45,395 bases of DNA from contig CACZXF010000022.1 in assembly GCA_902785105.1 (NCBI GenBank), positions 1 to 45,395 on the forward strand, written 5' to 3'. Position numbers and translations under genes: made by a program. The stretch comes from an uncultured Eubacteriales bacterium (GTDB taxonomy: Bacteria; Bacillota; Clostridia; Christensenellales; Aristaeellaceae). Shown in pieces: positions 23,369-32,177 of the stretch; positions within the stretch are counted from its first letter, which is position 1, and each line of letters starts with the position of its first letter. Under the pieces are notes generated by a model. The model made no database searches. It saw only the letters and a list, made by a program, of their open reading frames with translations, and was not told where the DNA came from.

Positions 23369-23422
23369 TATTAAATGTATGAGTGTCGTTATATTATGAC
23401 GGCAAAAGAAAGGTTGTTTTGG

Positions 23423-24334
23423 ATGCTGAAGTATACGATCAAGCGCGTTCTGCTGGCGATTGTCACGGTATTCATCATATCGGCCATCACCTTCTTCGCC
23501 ATGAACGCCATTCCCGGCGGCCCCTTCGCCAAGGAAAAGGCCCCCGACCCCGCGGTGCAGGCCGCGCTGGAAGCCCGTTTCAATCTGGACAAGCCGGTGG
23601 GGCAGCAATACCTGATCTACATGAACAATCTGTTCCACGGCGACTTCGGCATCTCCCTGAAAACCGGCCGCGAAATCTCCCAGATCATCTCCGAGAAATT
23701 TGCCGTTTCCGCCAAGCTGGGCGGCATGGCGGCGCTGTGCGCCGTGGTGCTGGGGCTGCTCCTGGGTTCCATCGCCGCGCTGTGCCGCAATAAGTGGCCG
23801 GACCGGCTCATCATCTTCCTGACCACGCTGTTCGTGTCGGTGCCCAGCTTCATACTGGCGACCATACTGCTGCTGGTGTTCGCATTGCAGCTCAAGTGGG
23901 TGGGCGTGTTCTCCACGGACAATCCCAATTACGTGCTGCCCGTGATATCGCTGATGCTCTATCCCATGAGCTACATCACCCGCCTCACCAAGTCCTCCAT
24001 GCTGGACGTGCTGGGGCAGGATTACATCCGCACCGCTCGGGCCAAGGGCGTCCGGGAATCGCTGGTCATCGCCAAGCACGCCCTGCGCAACGCGCTGATC
24101 CCGGTCATCACCTACGTCGGCCCCATGGTGGCGGGCATACTGACCGGCTCCATGGTCATCGAGACGGTGTTTTCCATCGGCGGCCTGGGCACGGAATTCG
24201 TGCGCTCCATCAACAATCAGGACTATCCCATGATCATGGCGACCACCATCTTTCTGGCCATACTGATGGTCATCGCCACGCTGCTGAGCGACCTGGTCTA
24301 CAAGCTCATCGACCCGAAGATCACCTTCGACTGA
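23423..24334 (+). CDS. oppB: oligopeptide ABC transporter permease OppB
   Basis: 303 residues from MLKYTIKRVLLAIVTV, chosen because AAAGAAAGG precedes it and the start fits OppB/DppB proteins; an in-frame ATG at 23396 has no ribosome-binding site. One N-terminal helix, then a periplasm-facing stretch with the typical FNLDKPVGQQYLIYMNNLFHGDFG. About five more helices follow with the EAA loop YIRTARAKGVRESLVIAKHALRNA, split here only for description. It forms the membrane channel with OppC. First gene of oppBCDF-oppA. Confidence 0.94.
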   Translation: MLKYTIKRVLLAIVTVFIISAITFFAMNAIPGGPFAKEKAPDPAVQAALEARFNLDKPVGQQYLIYMNNLFHGDFGISLKTGREISQIISEKFAVSAKLGGMAALCAVVLGLLLGSIAALCRNKWPDRLIIFLTTLFVSVPSFILATILLLVFALQLKWVGVFSTDNPNYVLPVISLMLYPMSYITRLTKSSMLDVLGQDYIRTARAKGVRESLVIAKHALRNALIPVITYVGPMVAGILTGSMVIETVFSIGGLGTEFVRSINNQDYPMIMATTIFLAILMVIATLLSDLVYKLIDPKITFD

Positions 24335-24352: not shown

Positions 24353-25426
24353 ATGAATAATGCGGACAGGCTCCCAAAGAAAAATCTCCTCAGCCTCCAG
24401 ATCGACCTGAGCAAGTTTGAAAAGGCCACGGACGAGGAAAAGGCCCAGCACGAAACCATGCGCGAATCCACCACCTTCTTCAAGGATGGTATGCGCAAGC
24501 TGCGGAAGAACCCGCTGGCGATGATGAGCCTGATCATTCTGGCCGTGCTGGTGATCTCCATCATCGTGGTGCCCTTCTTCTATCCCTACAGCTACGAGCA
24601 GATGATCACCGTGAACGGCAAGCGCGACAAGACCGCCAAGAACTTGGCCCCCTTCACCTATTCCAAGATGGAGCAGAAGGCCATCGACGAGGGCCAGAAG
24701 ATATTCCCCCACATCTTCGGCACCGACGAGCTCTGCCGCGACTACTTTATCCGCGTGGTCTACGGCGCGAGGGTGTCGCTGGCCGTAGGCCTGTTCGCCA
24801 GCCTGATCGTGCTGGTTATCGGCCTGGTGTACGGCTCGGTGGCCGGCTATTTCGGCGGCACCGTCGATATGGTCATGATGCGCATCGTCGATATCATCTA
24901 TTCCCTGCCGGATACGCTGATGGTGGTGCTGCTGTCCGTGGTGCTGAACCAGATCCTGGGCGCGAAGCTCCAGGGGACGGTGCTCGCCAAGCTGGGTACC
25001 AACATGATCTCCCTGTTCGTGGTGTTCGGCGTGCTGTACTGGGTGGGCATGGCCCGTCTGGTGCGCGGTCAGATTCTTTCAATCAGAAACAACGAATATG
25101 TGCTGGCCGCCCGTGCCCTGGGCGCGAAGCCGGGCCGCATCATCAAGAAGCACATACTGCCCAACTGCATGTCGGTCATCTTCATCTCCGTGGCCCTGCA
25201 GATCCCCTCGGCCATATTCACCGAGAGCTTCCTCTCCTTCATCGGCCTGGGCGTGCAGGCGCCGATGCCGTCCCTGGGCTCGCTGGCCAACGCGGCCCGC
25301 GGCGGTATGCAGAGCTATCCCTACAAGATGGTGTTCCCCGCGATCATCATCTGCCTGATCGTGCTGAGCTTCAACCTGCTGGGCGACGGCCTGCGCGATG
25401 CCTTTGACCCGAAGCTGAGGAGGTAG
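24353..25426 (+). CDS. oppC: oligopeptide ABC transporter permease OppC
   Basis: 357 residues, with GAGAGGAG upstream. A hydrophilic N-terminal tail of about 50 residues leads into the first helix (LAMMSLIILAVLVISIIVVP). A soluble segment containing HIFGTDELCRDYFIRVVYGARVSL follows, a hallmark of OppC/DppC. Further helices carry the EAA loop VLAARALGAKPGRIIKKH. It pairs with OppB. It lies 18 bp downstream of oppB and 5 bp upstream of oppD. Confidence 0.94.
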   Translation: MNNADRLPKKNLLSLQIDLSKFEKATDEEKAQHETMRESTTFFKDGMRKLRKNPLAMMSLIILAVLVISIIVVPFFYPYSYEQMITVNGKRDKTAKNLAPFTYSKMEQKAIDEGQKIFPHIFGTDELCRDYFIRVVYGARVSLAVGLFASLIVLVIGLVYGSVAGYFGGTVDMVMMRIVDIIYSLPDTLMVVLLSVVLNQILGAKLQGTVLAKLGTNMISLFVVFGVLYWVGMARLVRGQILSIRNNEYVLAARALGAKPGRIIKKHILPNCMSVIFISVALQIPSAIFTESFLSFIGLGVQAPMPSLGSLANAARGGMQSYPYKMVFPAIIICLIVLSFNLLGDGLRDAFDPKLRR

Positions 25427-25431
25427 AGAAG

Positions 25432-26439
25432 ATGAGCACACCGCTTTTGCAGGTCAAGAACCTGTGTACATCCTTTAACGTCGATTCCGGCGAGGTCCGC
25501 GCCGTCAATGGCGTCTCCTTCAATCTGGACAAGGGCAGAGTGCTGGGCATCGTGGGCGAGTCCGGTTCGGGCAAGTCCGTCACCGCCTATTCCATCATGG
25601 GCATACTGGTGGAGCCGGGCCGCATCAAGAGCGGCGAGATCCTCTTTAACGGCGAGGACATCGTCAAGTACAACAAAAAGCAGATGCGGGAATTCCGCGG
25701 CAAGCGGGTGTCCATCATCTTCCAGGACCCCATGACGAGCCTGAACCCCGTCTACACCATCGGCAACCAGCTACGCGAGGCCATCATGCTCCACACCGAC
25801 CGCAACCGCCAGCAGGCGAATGAGCGGGCGCTGGAAATGCTGAAGCTGGTGGGCGTCAACTCCCCGGAGCAGCGCCTCAAGCAGTACCCCTTCGAGCTGT
25901 CCGGCGGCATGCGCCAGCGCATCATGATCGCCATGGCGCTGTGCTGTGAGCCCGACATATTGATCGCTGACGAGCCCACCACCGCCCTGGACGTCACCAT
26001 ACAGGCCCAGATATTGGAGCTGATGCAGGAACTCCAAAAGAAGCTGGGCATGGCCATCATCATGATCACCCACGATCTGGGCGTCATCGCGGACATGTGC
26101 GATGAGATCATCGTCATGTACGCCGGCCGTGTCTGCGAGCGCGGCACCGCCGACGAGATATTCTACAATCCCTGCCACGAGTACACCAAGGGCCTGCTTC
26201 GCTCCATCCCCCGGCTGGACACCAACCACGCCCGCCTGATCCCCATCTCCGGCTCCCCGGTGGACCTGACCAACTTGCCCAAGGGCTGTGCCTTCGCGTC
26301 GCGCTGCGACAACTGCATGAAGATCTGCTTAAGCGAGTTGCCTGAGGAGCTTGATATCAACGATAACCACAAGGCAGCCTGCTGGATGAATGTCAGGCAG
26401 GTCTACAACGAGGCCGCGAAGGGAGGGAACGTCGAATGA
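25432..26439 (+). CDS. oppD: oligopeptide ABC transporter ATPase OppD
   Basis: 335 residues. Walker A GESGSGKS starts at residue 42, signature LSGGM at 156, Walker B Asp180-Glu181 in [11 protein letters not shown]. The C-terminal oligopeptide/dipeptide extension includes the Cys-rich [14 protein letters not shown], which in this family can carry an FeS cluster. It energises import with OppF. The stop overlaps the oppF start (ATGA). Confidence 0.95.
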
Positions 26440-27401
26440 GCGAATATTTGCTCGAGGTCAAAAACCTCAAACAGTACTTCCCCATCCGCACCGGCTGGTT
26501 CGGCACCAAGCCGCTGAAGGCCGTGGACGACGTGTCCTTCGCCATCAAGCCCGGCGAGACGCTGGGCCTCGTCGGCGAGTCCGGCTGCGGCAAGACCACC
26601 GTGGGCCGCACCATACTCCACCTCTACAAGCCCACCGCCGGCGAGATCATCTATGACAGCCAGCAGATCACCCCCCAGAACGTCCACAACTTCCGCCAGT
26701 CGATGCAGATCGTGTTCCAGGACCCCTATTCGTCGCTGAACCCCCGCATGACGGTTTCGGACATCGTGGGCGAACCGCTGGACATCCACAGCCTGTATAA
26801 GACCAAACAGGAGCGGGCCGACCGCATCGCGGAGCTGCTGGGCCTCGTGGGCCTGAACTCCGACCACGCCCGCCGCTATGCCCACGAGTTCTCAGGCGGC
26901 CAGCGCCAGCGCATCGGCATCGCCCGGGCCCTGGCCGTGAATCCGAAGTTCATCGTCTGCGATGAGCCTGTGTCCGCCCTGGACGTGTCCATACAGGCCC
27001 AGGTCATCAATACCTTCGAGGATTTGCAGAAGAAGCTGGGCATCGCCTACCTGTTCATCGCCCACGACCTGCTGGTGGTGCAGCACATCTCCCAGCGCAT
27101 CGCGGTGATGTACCTGGGGCGCATCGTGGAGATGGGGGACTCAGATGAGATCATCACCCATCCCGCCCACCCCTACACCCAGTCGCTGATATCGGCCATA
27201 CCGATCCCCGACCCGAACATCGCCCGGACCCGCACCCGCATTCCCCTGGAGGGCGATGTGCCCAGCCCGCTGAACACCCCCTCCGGCTGCGCCTTCCGTA
27301 CCCGCTGCCGCTACGCCACCGAAAAGTGCGCCCAGGAGCGCCCGCAGCTCACCGAAGTCGCCCCCGGCCACACCATCGCCTGCTGGAATCCGCACGACTG
27401 A
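26436..27401 (+). CDS. oppF: oligopeptide ABC transporter ATPase OppF
   Basis: 321 residues. Walker [10 protein letters not shown] starts at residue 47; the signature FSGGQRQR and Walker [13 protein letters not shown] are intact. The C-terminal extension has [14 protein letters not shown]. It forms the heterodimeric ATPase with OppD. A 71-bp gap to oppA contains a small AACGGC-CACC-GCCGTT hairpin (27423-27438) without a T-run, perhaps a processing or stability element favouring the binding-protein message. Confidence 0.95.
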
Positions 27402-27472: not shown

Positions 27473-27952
27473 ATGAAAAAATGGCTGAAGTCCTGTCTGG
27501 CGATCGTCTGCGTCATCGCAATGCTCTTTGCGGTGACCGGTTGCTCCAAGAAGGACGAGAAGAAGGAAGAGGCCGCTGCTCCCGCTGAGCAGGCCGCCAC
27601 TGCCGTCGAAGAGAAGGCTGCCGAAGCCACCGAAGAGGCCGCTGCCGCTGTTGAAGAGGCTGCTGCCGCTGTCGAAGAGACCGCTTCCGATGCCGCCGAA
27701 GCGGCTGCTGACGCCGCCGAAGAGACCGCTGAGGCTGCCGGTGAGGCTGTCGAAGATGCCAAGGAGACCGCTTCCGAGGCCGTCGAAGCTGCTGATGCTG
27801 CCGTAGAAGAGACCGCCGAGGCTGCCGGTGAGGCTGTCGAGGCTGCCAAGGAGACCGCTTCCGAGGCCGTCGAAGCTGCTGATGCTGCCGTAGAAGAGAC
27901 CGCCGAGGCCGCCGGTGAGGCTCGTCGAAGAGACCGCCGAGGCTGCCGGTGA
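27473..27952 (+). CDS. oppA: OppA lipoprotein, N-terminal fragment before frameshift
   Basis: 159 residues as read. A lipoprotein signal MKKWLKSCLAIVCVIAMLF ends with lipobox VTGC (Cys24), followed by KKDEKKEE and then Ala/Glu/Val/Thr repeats. AGGAGG precedes the ATG. At about 27923 an extra C in GAGGCTCGTCGAAGAG, compared with GAGGCTGTCGA in neighbouring repeats, shifts the frame, giving an RRRDRRGCR tail and a stop. Removing that one base joins this frame to the next feature, making one lipoprotein of about 929 residues. It could be a true frameshift, phase variation, or a sequencing or assembly error in a highly repetitive tract. Confidence 0.8.
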   Translation: MKKWLKSCLAIVCVIAMLFAVTGCSKKDEKKEEAAAPAEQAATAVEEKAAEATEEAAAAVEEAAAAVEETASDAAEAAADAAEETAEAAGEAVEDAKETASEAVEAADAAVEETAEAAGEAVEAAKETASEAVEAADAAVEETAEAAGEARRRDRRGCR

Positions 27953-28645
27953 GGCTGTTGAGGCTGCCAAGGAGACCGCTTCCGAAGCCGTCGAGGCTGC
28001 TGGCGAAGCTGTTGAAGAGGCCGCTGCCGAGGCTACCGAAGCTGCTGGCGAAGCCGTCGAGGAGGCCACTGCTGCCGTCGAAGAGACCGCTGCCGAGGCT
28101 ACCGAAGCCGTCGAGGAGGCCGCTGCTGCTGTCGAAGAAACTGCTGACGCTGCCACCGAAGCCGTAGAAGAGGCTGCCGCTGCCGTCGAAGAAACCGCTG
28201 CCGAGGCCACCGAAGCTGCTGGCGAAGCCGTCGAAGATGCCGCTGCTGCTGTCGAAGAGACTGCTGCCGAGGCCACCGAAGCTGCTGGCGAAGCCGTCGA
28301 AGGGGCTGCCGCTGCCGTCGAAGAGACCGCTGCTGAGGCCACCGAAGCTGCTGGCGAAGCCGTGGAAGAGGCCGCTGCCGCCGTCGAAGAGACTGCTGCT
28401 GAGGCCACCGAAGCTGTCGAAGAGGCCGCTGCTGCTGCCGAAGAGACTGCTGCTGAGGCCACCGAAGCTGCTGGTGAGGCCGTGGAAGAAGCTGCTGAAG
28501 CCGTCGAAGAGACTGCTGAAGCTGGCGTGGAAGAAGCCGCTGCTGCGGTTGCCGCCGCTGGCGCCGCTGCCGCCGTCGAAGAGGCCGCCGAAGCTGCCGA
28601 GGAGACCGCTGAGGCTGCTGAAGAAGCAGCTCCCGCTGGCAAGTC
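27560..28645 (+). repeat. Ala/Glu-rich 11/22-residue coding repeats (stalk)
   Basis: About 1.1 kb of near-tandem coding repeats. In the later part the unit is 22 residues (66 bp) of the form EAAGEAVEEAAAAVEETAAE plus AT. The earlier part shows an 87-bp period (for example 27791 versus 27878). Composition is almost only Ala, Glu, Val, Thr, Gly and Asp. The 11-residue periodicity and spacing of Ala/Val suggest long amphipathic helices. No Pro and very few aromatic residues. Confidence 0.85.
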
Positions 28646-30263
28646 CAGCGAAGCCGCTCCCGACTGGGCGGAATATGACGCCCTGATCGCGGACATCAAG
28701 ACCGAGACCGACTTCGCCGCCCGCGAAGCCAAGATGCACCAGGCCGAGGACAAGCTGATGGAGACCTACGCGGTCATCCCGCTCTACCACTACAACGACC
28801 TGTACATGCAGCGTGAGTCCGTGCAGGGCATCTATGCCAACCTGTTCGGCTTCAAGTATTTCCAGTACGCTACTGTCGAGGGCTCTGACTCCCTGCGCCT
28901 GAACCTGGCCTCCGAGCCCGACAAGCTGGACCCCGCTCTGAACAGCTCCGTGGACGGCGCCTGCCTGGCCATCGCCTCCTTCGGCGGCCTGTACACCTAT
29001 GACGCCGAGGGTCAGCTCAAGCCCGACTTCGCCACCGGCTATGAGGTGTCCGAGGACGGCCTGACCTACACCTTCACCCTGCGCGACGGCCTGAAGTGGT
29101 CCGACGGCTCCGACCTGACCGCCAAGGACTTCGAGTACAGCTGGAAGCGCGCCGCCAATCCCCAGACCGGTGCTGACTACAGCTACATGTTCGACGGCAT
29201 TAAGGGCTATCCCGAGGATCTGGCCGTGGCCGCTTCCGAGGATGGCAAGACCCTGACCGTCGAGCTGAAGAGCCCCTGCGCCTACATGCTCGACCTGATG
29301 GCCTTCCCCGCCTTCTATGCCGTGCCCCAGGCCTCCGTCGAGGCTGCCGAGGGCTGGCAGGAGAACCCCGGCCAGTGGGCCAATGAGGCTGGCTTCGTGG
29401 TTTCCGGTCCCTACATGCTCACCGAGTGGACCCACAACCAGTCCATGGTCTACACCAAGAACCCCAACTACTATGACGCCGAGAACGTGAAGTTGGAGAC
29501 CCTGTCCTTCATGCTGTCCGCTGACGACACCGCCATCTATGCCGCCTATCAGGCCGGCGACGTGGACTTCATCGACACCGTTCCCACCGATGAGATCCAG
29601 AACCTGAAGGGCAACCCCGAGTTCCACATCATCGATAACCTGGGCACCTACTATGCCGCTTTCAACGTGAATTCCAAGCTGTTCGAGGGCAAGACCGTGG
29701 AGCAGGCCAATGCCATGCGCGAAGCCTTCTCCAAGCTGATCGACCGCGAGTACATCATTGAGACCGTGGCTCAGTGCGAGCAGAAGCCCGCCAATGCCTT
29801 CATCCCCGAGGGCATGGCTGACGGCCAGGGCGGCGTGTTCAAGACCAACGACGACGCTTACACCTATCCCGTGAACGCCGCCACCGCCTCCGGTGAGGAG
29901 CTGGCCGGCTACTACACCTTCGAGGTGGACGAGGAAGGCGCGCGCGAGCTGCTGAAGCAGGCGGGCTATGAGTTCGACGACAACGGCATGCTCTCCGCCA
30001 ACACCCCCATCTCCATCGAGTATCTGACCAACGAGTCCTCCAGCCACGTGGCCATCGCCGAGTGCATGCAGCAGGATCTGGCCGCCGTCGGCATTCAGAT
30101 GAGCATCCGCACCTGCGACTGGAACGTGTTCCTCCAGGACCGCAAGAAGGGCCTGTTCGACTTCGCCCGCGAAGGCTGGCTGGCTGACTTCAACGATCCC
30201 ATCAACATGCTCGAGATGTGGACCACCGATTCCGGCAACAACGACTGCCAGTTCGGCCGCTGA
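27915..30263 (+). CDS. oppA: oligopeptide-binding protein OppA, circularly permuted substrate-binding domain
   Basis: Continuation of oppA after the frameshift; the GTG at 27915 only opens the frame and is probably not a real start. After the stalk come about 75 residues (28650-28876), PDWAEYDALIADIKTETDF through IPLYHYNDLYMQ to GFKYFQYATV, which resemble the C-terminal end of OppA/DppA proteins. Next comes the normal N-terminal part (LRLNLASEPDKLDPALNSSV, GLYTYDAEGQLKPDFATGYE). The SBP_bac_5 domain then runs to GWLADFNDPINMLEMW and stops after SGNNDCQFGR, just where the moved segment would normally follow. A perfect hairpin terminator follows. Peptide binding for OppBCDF is inferred from family and operon. 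Confidence 0.85.
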   Translation: MRLVEETAEAAGEAVEAAKETASEAVEAAGEAVEEAAAEATEAAGEAVEEATAAVEETAAEATEAVEEAAAAVEETADAATEAVEEAAAAVEETAAEATEAAGEAVEDAAAAVEETAAEATEAAGEAVEGAAAAVEETAAEATEAAGEAVEEAAAAVEETAAEATEAVEEAAAAAEETAAEATEAAGEAVEEAAEAVEETAEAGVEEAAAAVAAAGAAAAVEEAAEAAEETAEAAEEAAPAGKSSEAAPDWAEYDALIADIKTETDFAAREAKMHQAEDKLMETYAVIPLYHYNDLYMQRESVQGIYANLFGFKYFQYATVEGSDSLRLNLASEPDKLDPALNSSVDGACLAIASFGGLYTYDAEGQLKPDFATGYEVSEDGLTYTFTLRDGLKWSDGSDLTAKDFEYSWKRAANPQTGADYSYMFDGIKGYPEDLAVAASEDGKTLTVELKSPCAYMLDLMAFPAFYAVPQASVEAAEGWQENPGQWANEAGFVVSGPYMLTEWTHNQSMVYTKNPNYYDAENVKLETLSFMLSADDTAIYAAYQAGDVDFIDTVPTDEIQNLKGNPEFHIIDNLGTYYAAFNVNSKLFEGKTVEQANAMREAFSKLIDREYIIETVAQCEQKPANAFIPEGMADGQGGVFKTNDDAYTYPVNAATASGEELAGYYTFEVDEEGARELLKQAGYEFDDNGMLSANTPISIEYLTNESSSHVAIAECMQQDLAAVGIQMSIRTCDWNVFLQDRKKGLFDFAREGWLADFNDPINMLEMWTTDSGNNDCQFGR

Positions 30264-30283: not shown

Positions 30284-30325
30284 GCAGCCGGCGATCCTCA
30301 GATCGCCGGCTGCCTCTTGATTTTT
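30284..30325 (+). terminator. rho-independent terminator of the opp operon
   Basis: 13-bp perfect stem GCAGCCGGCGATC (30284-30296) with 30301-30313, loop CTCA, then CTCTTGATTTTT. Confidence 0.9.
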
Positions 30326-30372: not shown

Positions 30373-30561
30373 GGTAAACAGGGATTTGTCGGGGTATCGT
30401 TCGAGTCCACCTCATCCGGCGCTTCGCGCCATCTTCCCCTCAAGGGGGAAGGCTTTTGGGTTGCCTCAGTTTTCCCAACCTTGCCTTCCCCTTGAGGGGA
30501 AGGTGCCCGTGAGGGCGGATGAGGTGGCTTACCCGCTTCCTCCGACAACTTCCATTTTATC
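30373..30561. repeat. MITE-like repeat, copy 3 (ccacctcatccg cassette)
   Basis: Left end GGTAAACAGGGATTTGTCGG, right end CCGACAACTTCCATTTTATC. Cassette as in copies 1 and 2. It fills the gap between the opp terminator and the cls start and ends 23 bp before the cls ATG, so it may supply part of the cls leader. Confidence 0.8.
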
Positions 30562-30584
30562 AAAATAAATATTCGGGGCGCTTC

Positions 30585-32177
30585 ATGGACAAGCAAAAAA
30601 TCAGGGATAAATCGAGTCAGGACAATTCGGGCATCTATTTGCTGGAAAAGAGCAAGCGGGGCGTGTTGAACGTGTTGTTCGGGCGCACGATGGTGATCGT
30701 CGTGCTGCTGTTGGTGCAGATATTCTTGCTGTACCGGGTGTTCAACTCCCTGCGGTATGTCAAATATGTCTACGCGGCCTTGCAGGTGCTGTATGCGGCG
30801 CTGATCCTGCGGCTGGTGAACAAGGACTCCAACCCCTCTATCAAGATATCATGGATACTGCTGGTGGTGCTCGCGCCGCCGGTAGGCTTTTTCCTCTACC
30901 TCTTCGTGGAAATGGACTGGGGCCACCGGGTGCTGAACCGGCGATTGGGCGAGTTGATTCGCAAGACCGCGCCGATGCTTCCGGATCAGTCGGACCTCCG
31001 GGTGAGCCTCCGGGAGAAGGAGCCCGAGCTAGCCGCTATGGCCGACTACATGTGGCGCAACGGCTACTTCGACGTCTATGACAAGACGGATGCCGAATAC
31101 CTGCCCAGCGGCGAAGCGTCCATGGAGGCCATCCTCCGGGAGCTGGACAGGGCCGAGAAGTTCATCTTCATGGAGTTCTTCATCATCGACGAGGGCGTCA
31201 TGTGGGGCCAGATCCTCAAAAAGTTAGAGGAAAAGGTGGAGCAGGGCGTGGAGGTGCGCGTGCTCTACGACGGCACCTGCGCACTGTTTCGGCTGCCCTA
31301 CCGCTATCCCAAGATGCTGGAGGCCCTGGGCATCAAGTGCAAGATGTTCTCCCCGCTGCGCCCTCTGGTGTCCACCCACTACAACAACCGCGACCACCGC
31401 AAGATACTGGTGGTGGACGGCCGCGTGGCCTTCACCGGCGGCGTGAACCTGGCGGATGAGTACATCAACAAAAAGCAGCTCTACGGCCACTGGAAGGACG
31501 TGGGTCTCATCGTCCGTGGCGAGGCCGTCCGGGCTTTCACGCTGATGTTCTTGCAGATGTGGAACATCGACGAGCGGAACGAGAACTTCGTCAAGTACCT
31601 CTACATCGAGCACACCGCTGTGCCCGTGAAGGGCTATGTGCTGCCCTATGGCGACAGTCCGCTGGACGATGAGCGGATGGGGGAGATGGTGTATCTGGAC
31701 ATCATCAACCGCGCCGAGCGCTATGTCCACATCATGTCGCCCTATCTGATATTGGACAGTGAGATGATCACCGCCCTGACCTTTGCCGCCAAGCGCGGCG
31801 TGGACGTGGCGATACTGCTGCCCCACATTCCCGACAAGCGCTATGCCTTCGCCCTCGCCAAGACTCACTATCGACAGCTCCTGCAGGCGGGCGTGCGGAT
31901 ACTGGAATACACGCCGGGCTTCGTCCACGCCAAGGTGTTCGTGTCCGATGACATCAAGGCCGTGGTGGGAACCATCAACCTGGACTATCGCAGTCTCTAC
32001 CTCCACTTCGAGTGCGCAGCCTACCTCTACGGCTGCCCCGCCGTGGCCGACGTGGAGCGCGATTTCCAGGAGACCGCGGCGCTCTCCCAGGAGATCCACA
32101 TGGCTGACCTTGCCAAGATCGGCCTCCCCACCCGCGCCGCCGGTTGGCTGCTGAAGGTCCTTGCGCCGCTGATGTAA
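30585..32177 (+). CDS. cls: cardiolipin synthase (phospholipase D family)
   Basis: 530 residues from MDKQKIRDKSSQDN; a longer frame from 30519 runs into the repeat and is rejected. The ribosome-binding site is weak (CGGGGCG). About three hydrophobic segments at roughly 31-55, 60-77 and 85-107 anchor it in the membrane. Two PLD catalytic motifs are intact: HRKILVVDG (HxK...D), followed by FTGGVN, and HAKVFVSDD, followed by GTINLD. It condenses two phosphatidylglycerol molecules to cardiolipin. Single gene ending at a bidirectional hairpin. Confidence 0.94.
   Translation: MDKQKIRDKSSQDNSGIYLLEKSKRGVLNVLFGRTMVIVVLLLVQIFLLYRVFNSLRYVKYVYAALQVLYAALILRLVNKDSNPSIKISWILLVVLAPPVGFFLYLFVEMDWGHRVLNRRLGELIRKTAPMLPDQSDLRVSLREKEPELAAMADYMWRNGYFDVYDKTDAEYLPSGEASMEAILRELDRAEKFIFMEFFIIDEGVMWGQILKKLEEKVEQGVEVRVLYDGTCALFRLPYRYPKMLEALGIKCKMFSPLRPLVSTHYNNRDHRKILVVDGRVAFTGGVNLADEYINKKQLYGHWKDVGLIVRGEAVRAFTLMFLQMWNIDERNENFVKYLYIEHTAVPVKGYVLPYGDSPLDDERMGEMVYLDIINRAERYVHIMSPYLILDSEMITALTFAAKRGVDVAILLPHIPDKRYAFALAKTHYRQLLQAGVRILEYTPGFVHAKVFVSDDIKAVVGTINLDYRSLYLHFECAAYLYGCPAVADVERDFQETAALSQEIHMADLAKIGLPTRAAGWLLKVLAPLM

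Follow-up and report, generated by a model that had tools for sequence, protein, structure and literature searches.

A naturally circularly permuted OppA-type receptor in an oligopeptide importer operon and indications of repeated changes of chain order at three cut points

The receptor gene that follows oppBCDF in the window (the whole stretch of 45,395 nucleotides analysed here, from an uncultured Eubacteriales bacterium) encodes an OppA-type (SBP_bac_5) domain at positions 28650-30263 in which the canonical C-terminal segment of approximately 75 residues is placed first. This permuted order of the gene was confirmed. The gene presumably encodes the substrate-binding lipoprotein of an oppBCDF-encoded oligopeptide importer, the chain of which is circularly permuted by nature: the original C- and N-termini would be joined through a few residues, and the new termini would open in the loop that follows SGNNDCQFG, within lobe 2 (domain III). 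We consider it highly probable that the protein is a permuted importer receptor with its anchor on lobe 2 and that the chain order of such receptors has changed repeatedly at three cut points, most likely via duplication.

Upstream of the receptor gene the window contains, on the forward strand, four open reading frames which we take, from their sequence, to be an oppB-like (23375-24334) and an oppC-like permease gene (24353-25426) and an oppD-like (25432-26439) and an oppF-like ATPase gene (26436-27401); in most related loci, relatives of these genes lie upstream of the receptor. The receptor itself starts with the ATG at position 27473, upstream of position 28650 from which the initial annotation had described it. 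The same strand then encodes a putative signal peptide with a lipobox-like end (...LFAVTGC; 27473-27544, read in the ORF 27473-27952), an Ala/Glu-rich repeat linker (27545-28658; periods of 9-132 according to Tandem Repeats Finder), a segment C comprising two helices, the hinge strand and the last strands (28659-28883; PDB alignment and the helices and strand predicted by AlphaFold2), and a segment M reaching from the canonical N-terminal start to the end at SGNNDCQFGR (28884-30260; PF00496 and residues 17-450 of the PDB chain 8are). The stop codon (30261-30263) is followed by a stem-loop and a T-rich run read in the sequence as terminator-like (30284-30313).

Within the linker the reading frame switches once, in the overlap 27915-27952 of the ORFs 27473-27952 and 27915-30263, which may represent either an error in the repeat or a true frameshift. 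The second frame is open from 27915 to 30263 and contains the peptides named in the initial annotation at the positions given there; its portion of the linker comprises 248 residues, 44% of which are Ala and 30% Glu. In comparison with the nearest congeners the linker of the window is greatly extended, and it also exceeds the N-terminal extensions of 79 related proteins, which by a crude measure that includes the signal peptide span 21-224 residues. Downstream of the receptor gene a near-palindromic element of about 146 bases (30395-30540) was detected, which recurs at no fewer than 40 places of the same genome with 86-100% identity (40 scored of 283 first-look candidates) and has the appearance of a dispersed palindromic repeat or MITE. 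The downstream ORF 30519-32177 (552 residues) presumably has a product similar to proteins of the cardiolipin synthase / phospholipase D type.

The translation of 28650-30260 (537 residues) matched PF00496 (SBP_bac_5), the only Pfam family found in the domain, with residues 123-531 against profile positions 2-367 of 368 (E 8.9e-85; 285.4 bits, above the gathering cut-off of 32.4). Since the match forms one colinear stretch, no part of the modelled body is lacking. The N-to-C order usual in described SBP_bac_5 members is not that of the window protein; this order is a property of the described members, as the Pfam model covers the middle of the protein and does not include it.

In order to place the moved piece, a profile built from 15 permuted sequences, the window one among them, was searched against all PDB chains. 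In OppA of Bacillus subtilis (8are, 525 residues) the profile positions 79-403 and 417-534 aligned with residues 17-450 of the chain, and the moved piece (profile positions 9-76) aligned with residues 455-522 (i-E 6.4e-6). In DppE (8ay0) the profile positions 9-70 were matched to residues 451-512 (i-E 6.5e-11). As judged from these alignments, the window chain is a circular permutation with a cut between the OppA residues 450 and 455, its old ends being joined via the short link ...YATVEGSDSLRLNL.... Each of the two pieces thus aligns with its own part of OppA, in swapped order: the segment 28650-28876 corresponds to the last approximately 75 residues of OppA/DppA, as the initial annotation had proposed, and is placed nowhere other than at the C-terminal end of the family. 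It precedes the usual N-terminal start (...LRLNLASEPDKLDPALNSSV...), from which the chain runs on to SGNNDCQFGR, likewise as proposed. The border suggested previously (28876|28877) falls inside the link, and a placement closer than the link is impossible; our own border between the segments C and M (28883|28884) was chosen within the link for convenience.

The stretch GW.ADFNDP, which aligns with that of OppA, is conserved in the permuted receptors; we assume that its Asp holds the amino end of the peptide in OppA. Comparison of the window with six congeners gave pN/pS ratios between 0.20 and 0.51 for segment C and between 0.35 and 0.48 for the body. A decayed gene is disfavoured by these values, which are below 1 in both parts alike. 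The C-terminal segment might also have been duplicated locally and still be present at the far end of the protein, but this was ruled out: the chain stops at SGNNDCQFGR, and no further copy was detected by the profile in the short frames of the window. Circular permutation is supported as the reading that fits the PDB alignments, the conservation, the pN/pS ratios below 1 and the confident prediction of a single fold.

The AlphaFold2 prediction, obtained for the window with 52 loci, showed one confident fold (mean pLDDT 93.1, pTM 0.90), and the block means in the first 80 residues, which contain the moved segment, were 93-97. The top PDB match in Foldseek was OppA of B. subtilis (E 1.1e-36, TM-score 0.67 by query length, 483 columns), further top matches being kin of OppA, DppA, DppE and MppA. 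As Foldseek aligns in chain order it cannot also match the moved piece, the place of which in the fold rests on prediction and sequence. The window domain was thus predicted to adopt the bilobed cluster C fold and not the type I / cluster B fold: the 50 Foldseek matches listed carry the names of OppA/DppA/NikA-like and related receptors, and the cluster assignment of these structures is our assumption.

In the available text on AliD of the Ami system, lobe 1 consists of domain I (29-63, 191-296, 583-617) and domain II, and lobe 2 of domain III (297-582) (PMC11192437). By homology to these domain limits, which were used in place of a superposition, the cut of the window protein and two further cuts described below would all lie in lobe 2, that of class III near its start, that of class II in the middle and that of class I, the form of the window, towards its end. 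With the cuts in lobe 2, the signal peptide, the lipid anchor and the linker would leave from lobe 2 and not from lobe 1. The permuted receptor would presumably still close on peptides in the manner of a Venus flytrap and feed OppBC, peptide binding and transport being expected to proceed as in OppA.

The class I order was found in 18 of the 28 genomes of the genus, the genome of the window included. A single match across the whole query (3-537 or more, 78-100% identity) was obtained in 13 genomes; in G002 the match covered 18-537, and in G012, G019, G020 and G024 it was interrupted by contig ends or a gap. The other ten genomes gave no comparable match to the permuted query. The congeners carry the same order as one open frame with 78-89% identity to the window, and their signal peptide runs directly into segment C (...AMADEGSEPDW).

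Beyond the genus we inspected the best 80 of at least 565 relatives found in the genome-contig search, eight of which are the same contigs as those of the genus congeners; being the best matches to a permuted query, these loci are no measure of how common the order is. The permuted order was present in 79 of them, comprising 77 single proteins and two fused doubles (L065 and L066), and the remaining locus (L070) is cut by the contig edge. The loci include the complete genome AP025576.1 and the isolate Eisenbergiella tayi DSM 26961, and the order was also found in a record of Murimonas intestini DSM 26524, the title of which is flagged UNVERIFIED_CONTAM. The search for homologues with the same order, proposed in the initial annotation, was therefore positive both within the genus and beyond it. 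The new C-terminus reads ...GR or ...GK, mostly SGNND.QFGR, in 71 of the 77 single permuted proteins; the exceptions have one extra Tyr (L069, L078), one extra Glu (L090) or longer tails (L097, L106, L128). Such tails past the usual end occur in L222 as well, and those of L097 and L106 are rich in Ala/Glu or Ala/Ser. In the family f31 (of G340) a spanning match at E 1e-22 was detected in 18 of 250 genomes, and all 18 loci, each of which was fetched, are of class I; some of these genomes are the same contigs as loci among the best 80.

Two further circular permutants were recognised in Opp operons, with cuts at the OppA residues 362|363 (class II) and 287|294 (class III). Class II comprises L129, L131-L133, L160, L161 and L163-L168, and class III comprises L130, L134 and L159. 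In the class II protein of L164 the residues 186-549 align with OppA 11-362 (i-E 1.8e-67) and the residues 24-180 with OppA 363-519 (i-E 7.1e-24). In the class III protein of L150, which is the same gene as that of L130, the residues 299-559 align with OppA 22-287 (i-E 6.8e-65) and the residues 62-277 with 294-507 (i-E 1.7e-47). A short link joins the old ends in all three classes. Single-contig genomes are represented by G364 for class III and by G064 and G603 for class II; in another single-contig genome a class II gene is split in two frames by a TGA (L162:7806-9491, G778:C1).

A profile of the C-to-N junction of class I was used to search 391 genomes of the taxonomic class at a threshold of E 1e-40 and 398 genomes of the phylum at a cut-off of E 1e-20. 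Spanning matches were detected in nine of the 391 genomes, a number which is a lower bound given the strict threshold and the restriction of the profile to class I. The nine represent class I (the genome of the window, G366 and G124), class II (G374, G174, G064 and G120) and class III (G364 and G096). In the phylum set a spanning match was obtained in 11 of the 398 genomes; apart from the genome of the window, one of these belongs to class III and nine to the class II type.

Among the best 80 loci oppF is located upstream of the receptor on the same strand in 76, and the four others (L062, L070, L072, L097) start at the contig edge. In class III loci the receptor also follows oppF; in class II loci it precedes oppB, with L149 having its opp genes on the other strand. 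Within the scope of the operon scan, which covered oppB, oppC, oppD, oppF and receptor genes only, a second receptor was recognised by the receptor profile in few loci (L032, L045, L033/L050 as fragments and L071 as a weak match). In L050 decayed fragments of a receptor gene lie between oppF and the permuted receptor.

The reading of the window gene as a permutation, as put forward in the initial annotation, was upheld; the wide occurrence of the order, the other cut points and the canonical orthologues in the same operon slot had been missed. These canonical receptors, which are close to class I and likewise located after oppF (L199-L205), reach body scores of up to 780 bits, compared with 710-848 for permuted receptors in the same search. 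Between the permuted receptor of a Butyrivibrio (L111) and the canonical receptor of L202 the identity amounts to 84% over 450 body residues and to 76% over 76 residues of segment C. For the class III receptor of L159 and the canonical receptor of L147 the respective values are 74% and 65%.

For the phylogenetic trees all proteins were rearranged to the canonical order prior to alignment. The main receptor tree (68 rows) represents the canonical order by 29 rows, class I by 29, class II by 7 and class III by 3; a further 16 rows, mostly long-branch canonical ones and near copies, as well as the rows of 19 class I loci were left out. The order changes nine times in this tree, and well-supported branches force at least six changes between canonical and the rest, with three for class I, two for class II and two for class III; the trees being unrooted, these numbers comprise gains and reversals alike. 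Two other trees gave a picture of the same kind: six changes were counted in a quick tree of 63 rows with class I thinned to 20, and five in a tree of 69 rows in which class III was represented by one row and class II was absent. AU tests rejected a single clade for class III (p 9.3e-57), class II (p 9.3e-4) and class I (p 7.8e-5). The canonical L195 falls within class II on a very long branch and is not to be counted on, and long branches meet at the base. L195 and L190 belong to a contig with three neighbouring SBP_bac_5 genes (G457:C24), the tree rows of which are canonical with long branches.

The flanking operon provides an independent tree. A quick tree of OppC-OppD-OppF, built from 50 of 51 loci as the opp genes of L157 were not in reach, showed seven changes of order. 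It pairs L111 with L202 (99) and L159 with L217 (93), the latter originating from the same genome as L147, which indicates that in these pairs the order changed within an operon that otherwise kept its company. The receptor trees give (L199,(L111,L202)), and in the operon tree L199 is near L111/L202 on an unresolved branch. The canonical L201/L205 are united with the canonical L138 group in the operon tree (95), whereas the receptor tree parts them by weak branches (81-82), so that the true number of changes may be below nine. Furthermore, a canonical copy could, through gene conversion, give the false impression that the order has switched. Taken together, the importer receptor probably switches in place and repeatedly between the canonical and the three permuted orders, via tandem or fused copies, thereby choosing anew which lobe is tied to the membrane.

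The window belongs to a draft assembly of 131 contigs, its linker is repeat-rich and contains the frame change, tandem copies are known in relatives, and most related loci also stem from metagenome assemblies. All of this would suit a collapse of two tandem oppA genes into one during assembly, an artefact against which the initial annotation had warned. However, the identical order in the congeners and in 79 of the best 80 loci, which include AP025576.1 as a complete genome and E. tayi DSM 26961 as an isolate, the occurrence of classes II and III in the single-contig genomes G064, G364 and G603, the nearly constant new C-terminus and the position of the congeners' signal peptide directly before segment C leave this explanation with a negligible probability. 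The collapse is in effect refuted for the order of the fold, a conclusion that refers to the order and not to the exact length of the Ala/Glu linker of the window. It appears very unlikely, too, that the permuted protein no longer serves as a transport receptor and has become a sensor or adhesin using the same fold: the variable and at times long N-terminal extensions, that of the window being the longest, would be in line with such a role, but the place beside oppBCDF is constant and a second receptor of the same profile is found in few loci only.

The changed orders of the importer receptor most likely originated by duplication, in which tandem in-frame copies would arise and different ends would then be trimmed. 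In two loci, which come from MAGs with the names Chloroflexi and Anaerolineaceae, a single frame comprises two permuted modules (L065:5530-9450 and L066:3607-7593; 1307 and 1329 residues), and such a fused double protein contains both chain orders simultaneously. The two modules of L065 are separated by an Ala/Val/Glu-rich linker. Tandem pairs of receptor genes were detected in L032 and L045, and in L033 a decayed second permuted receptor gene (L033:5081-5673, G006:C202) lies in tandem upstream of the intact one. Partly trimmed intermediates of the type C-M-C were absent from the 5622 ORFs scanned. Remnants of the old ends next to permuted genes were searched for in 51,826 frames of at least 20 residues (loci L029-L218 and the window). 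Among frames below 300 residues the matches were confined to contig-end pieces, the decayed tandem copy of L033/L050, the gene of L162 that is split by a stop, and three weak ones, which concern the body only (L065, L069, L078). Receptor halves that were once separate genes and became fused in a new order would likewise yield different cut points; no result pointed to such an origin. Nevertheless, fission and fusion is rather improbable as the origin, since beyond these few remnants no short receptor pieces were seen, whole duplicated modules are what is observed, and the short link between the old ends in three classes is what duplicated whole genes predict. Somewhat less improbable, yet still unlikely, is that each cut site goes back to one ancient event and that canonical orthologues returned through horizontal transfer or gene conversion, not through repeated switching in place. 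The unrooted trees are compatible with either direction of the changes, and the class I receptors in MAGs named Chloroflexi (L069, L078) nest among Clostridia, a placement that in these cases, at least, points to transfer or mis-binning. On the other hand, replacement of the receptor only would not yield the pairing of L111/L202 and L159/L217 in the operon tree, and the AU tests are incompatible with a single clade for any of the classes.

Natural circular permutations are known mainly as isolated old events that separate distant proteins. In the present family the chain order differs between orthologues that are 84% identical, and the neighbouring opp genes supply an independent tree. The proposed mechanism of duplication, trimming and selection on the anchor is thereby accessible to direct tests by comparison and experiment. 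For annotation it is of relevance that the Pfam model of the middle domain is blind to the class I order. The permutants furthermore mark sites at which OppA-type receptors tolerate new ends, which may be useful for sensor design.

The window receptor resembles canonical OppA and DppE (8are, 8ay0; PF00496, cluster C) in the alignment of its body and moved segment, its oppBCDF partners and its predicted fold; it differs from them in having the C-terminal approximately 75 residues first and, by prediction, the new termini in lobe 2. Permutation has also recurred in DNA methyltransferases. In the literature searched, largely at the level of titles and abstracts, no published permuted cluster C receptor was found, and the only natural permuted receptor evident was TpMglB-2. 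The earlier statement that a permuted member of the OppA family was not known agrees with that literature, but a permuted receptor of another class, cluster B, has been published (PMC4990184). According to the available sections of that report TpMglB-2 (Tp0684) is a circularly permuted glucose-binding lipoprotein of 'Type Ic / Cluster Bc' (PMC4990184). It shares with the window receptor the natural permutation of a tethered ABC-importer receptor, and its type also occurs in Gram-positive gut bacteria (PMC4990184). However, it is a Type I / cluster B sugar receptor of another fold class with another cut, and its permuted part is described there as poorly conserved and as containing a large insertion (PMC4990184). 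The available sections make no mention of orthologues that switch their order. Brautigam et al. raised membrane tethering as a reason for the permutation of TpMglB-2 (PMC4990184), and by analogy this idea fits the permuted OppA-type receptors. AliC of the pneumococcal Ami system, also of cluster C, is described in the available text as a domain-swapped dimer of a canonical chain re-connected at the lobe-lobe hinge loop 290-294, and not as a permutation (PMC11192437); this loop would be located near the class III cut. What appears to be new relative to the literature searched is the occurrence of permuted receptors in cluster C, their division into three forms and their probable recurrent switching. 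Permutation by duplication via duplicated intermediates has been exemplified, in the accessible part of a publication, by DNA methyltransferases and saposin/swaposin (PMC3320104). These proteins are unrelated to the OppA-type receptors, which are distinguished by several cuts and by both chain orders among orthologues in one operon slot.
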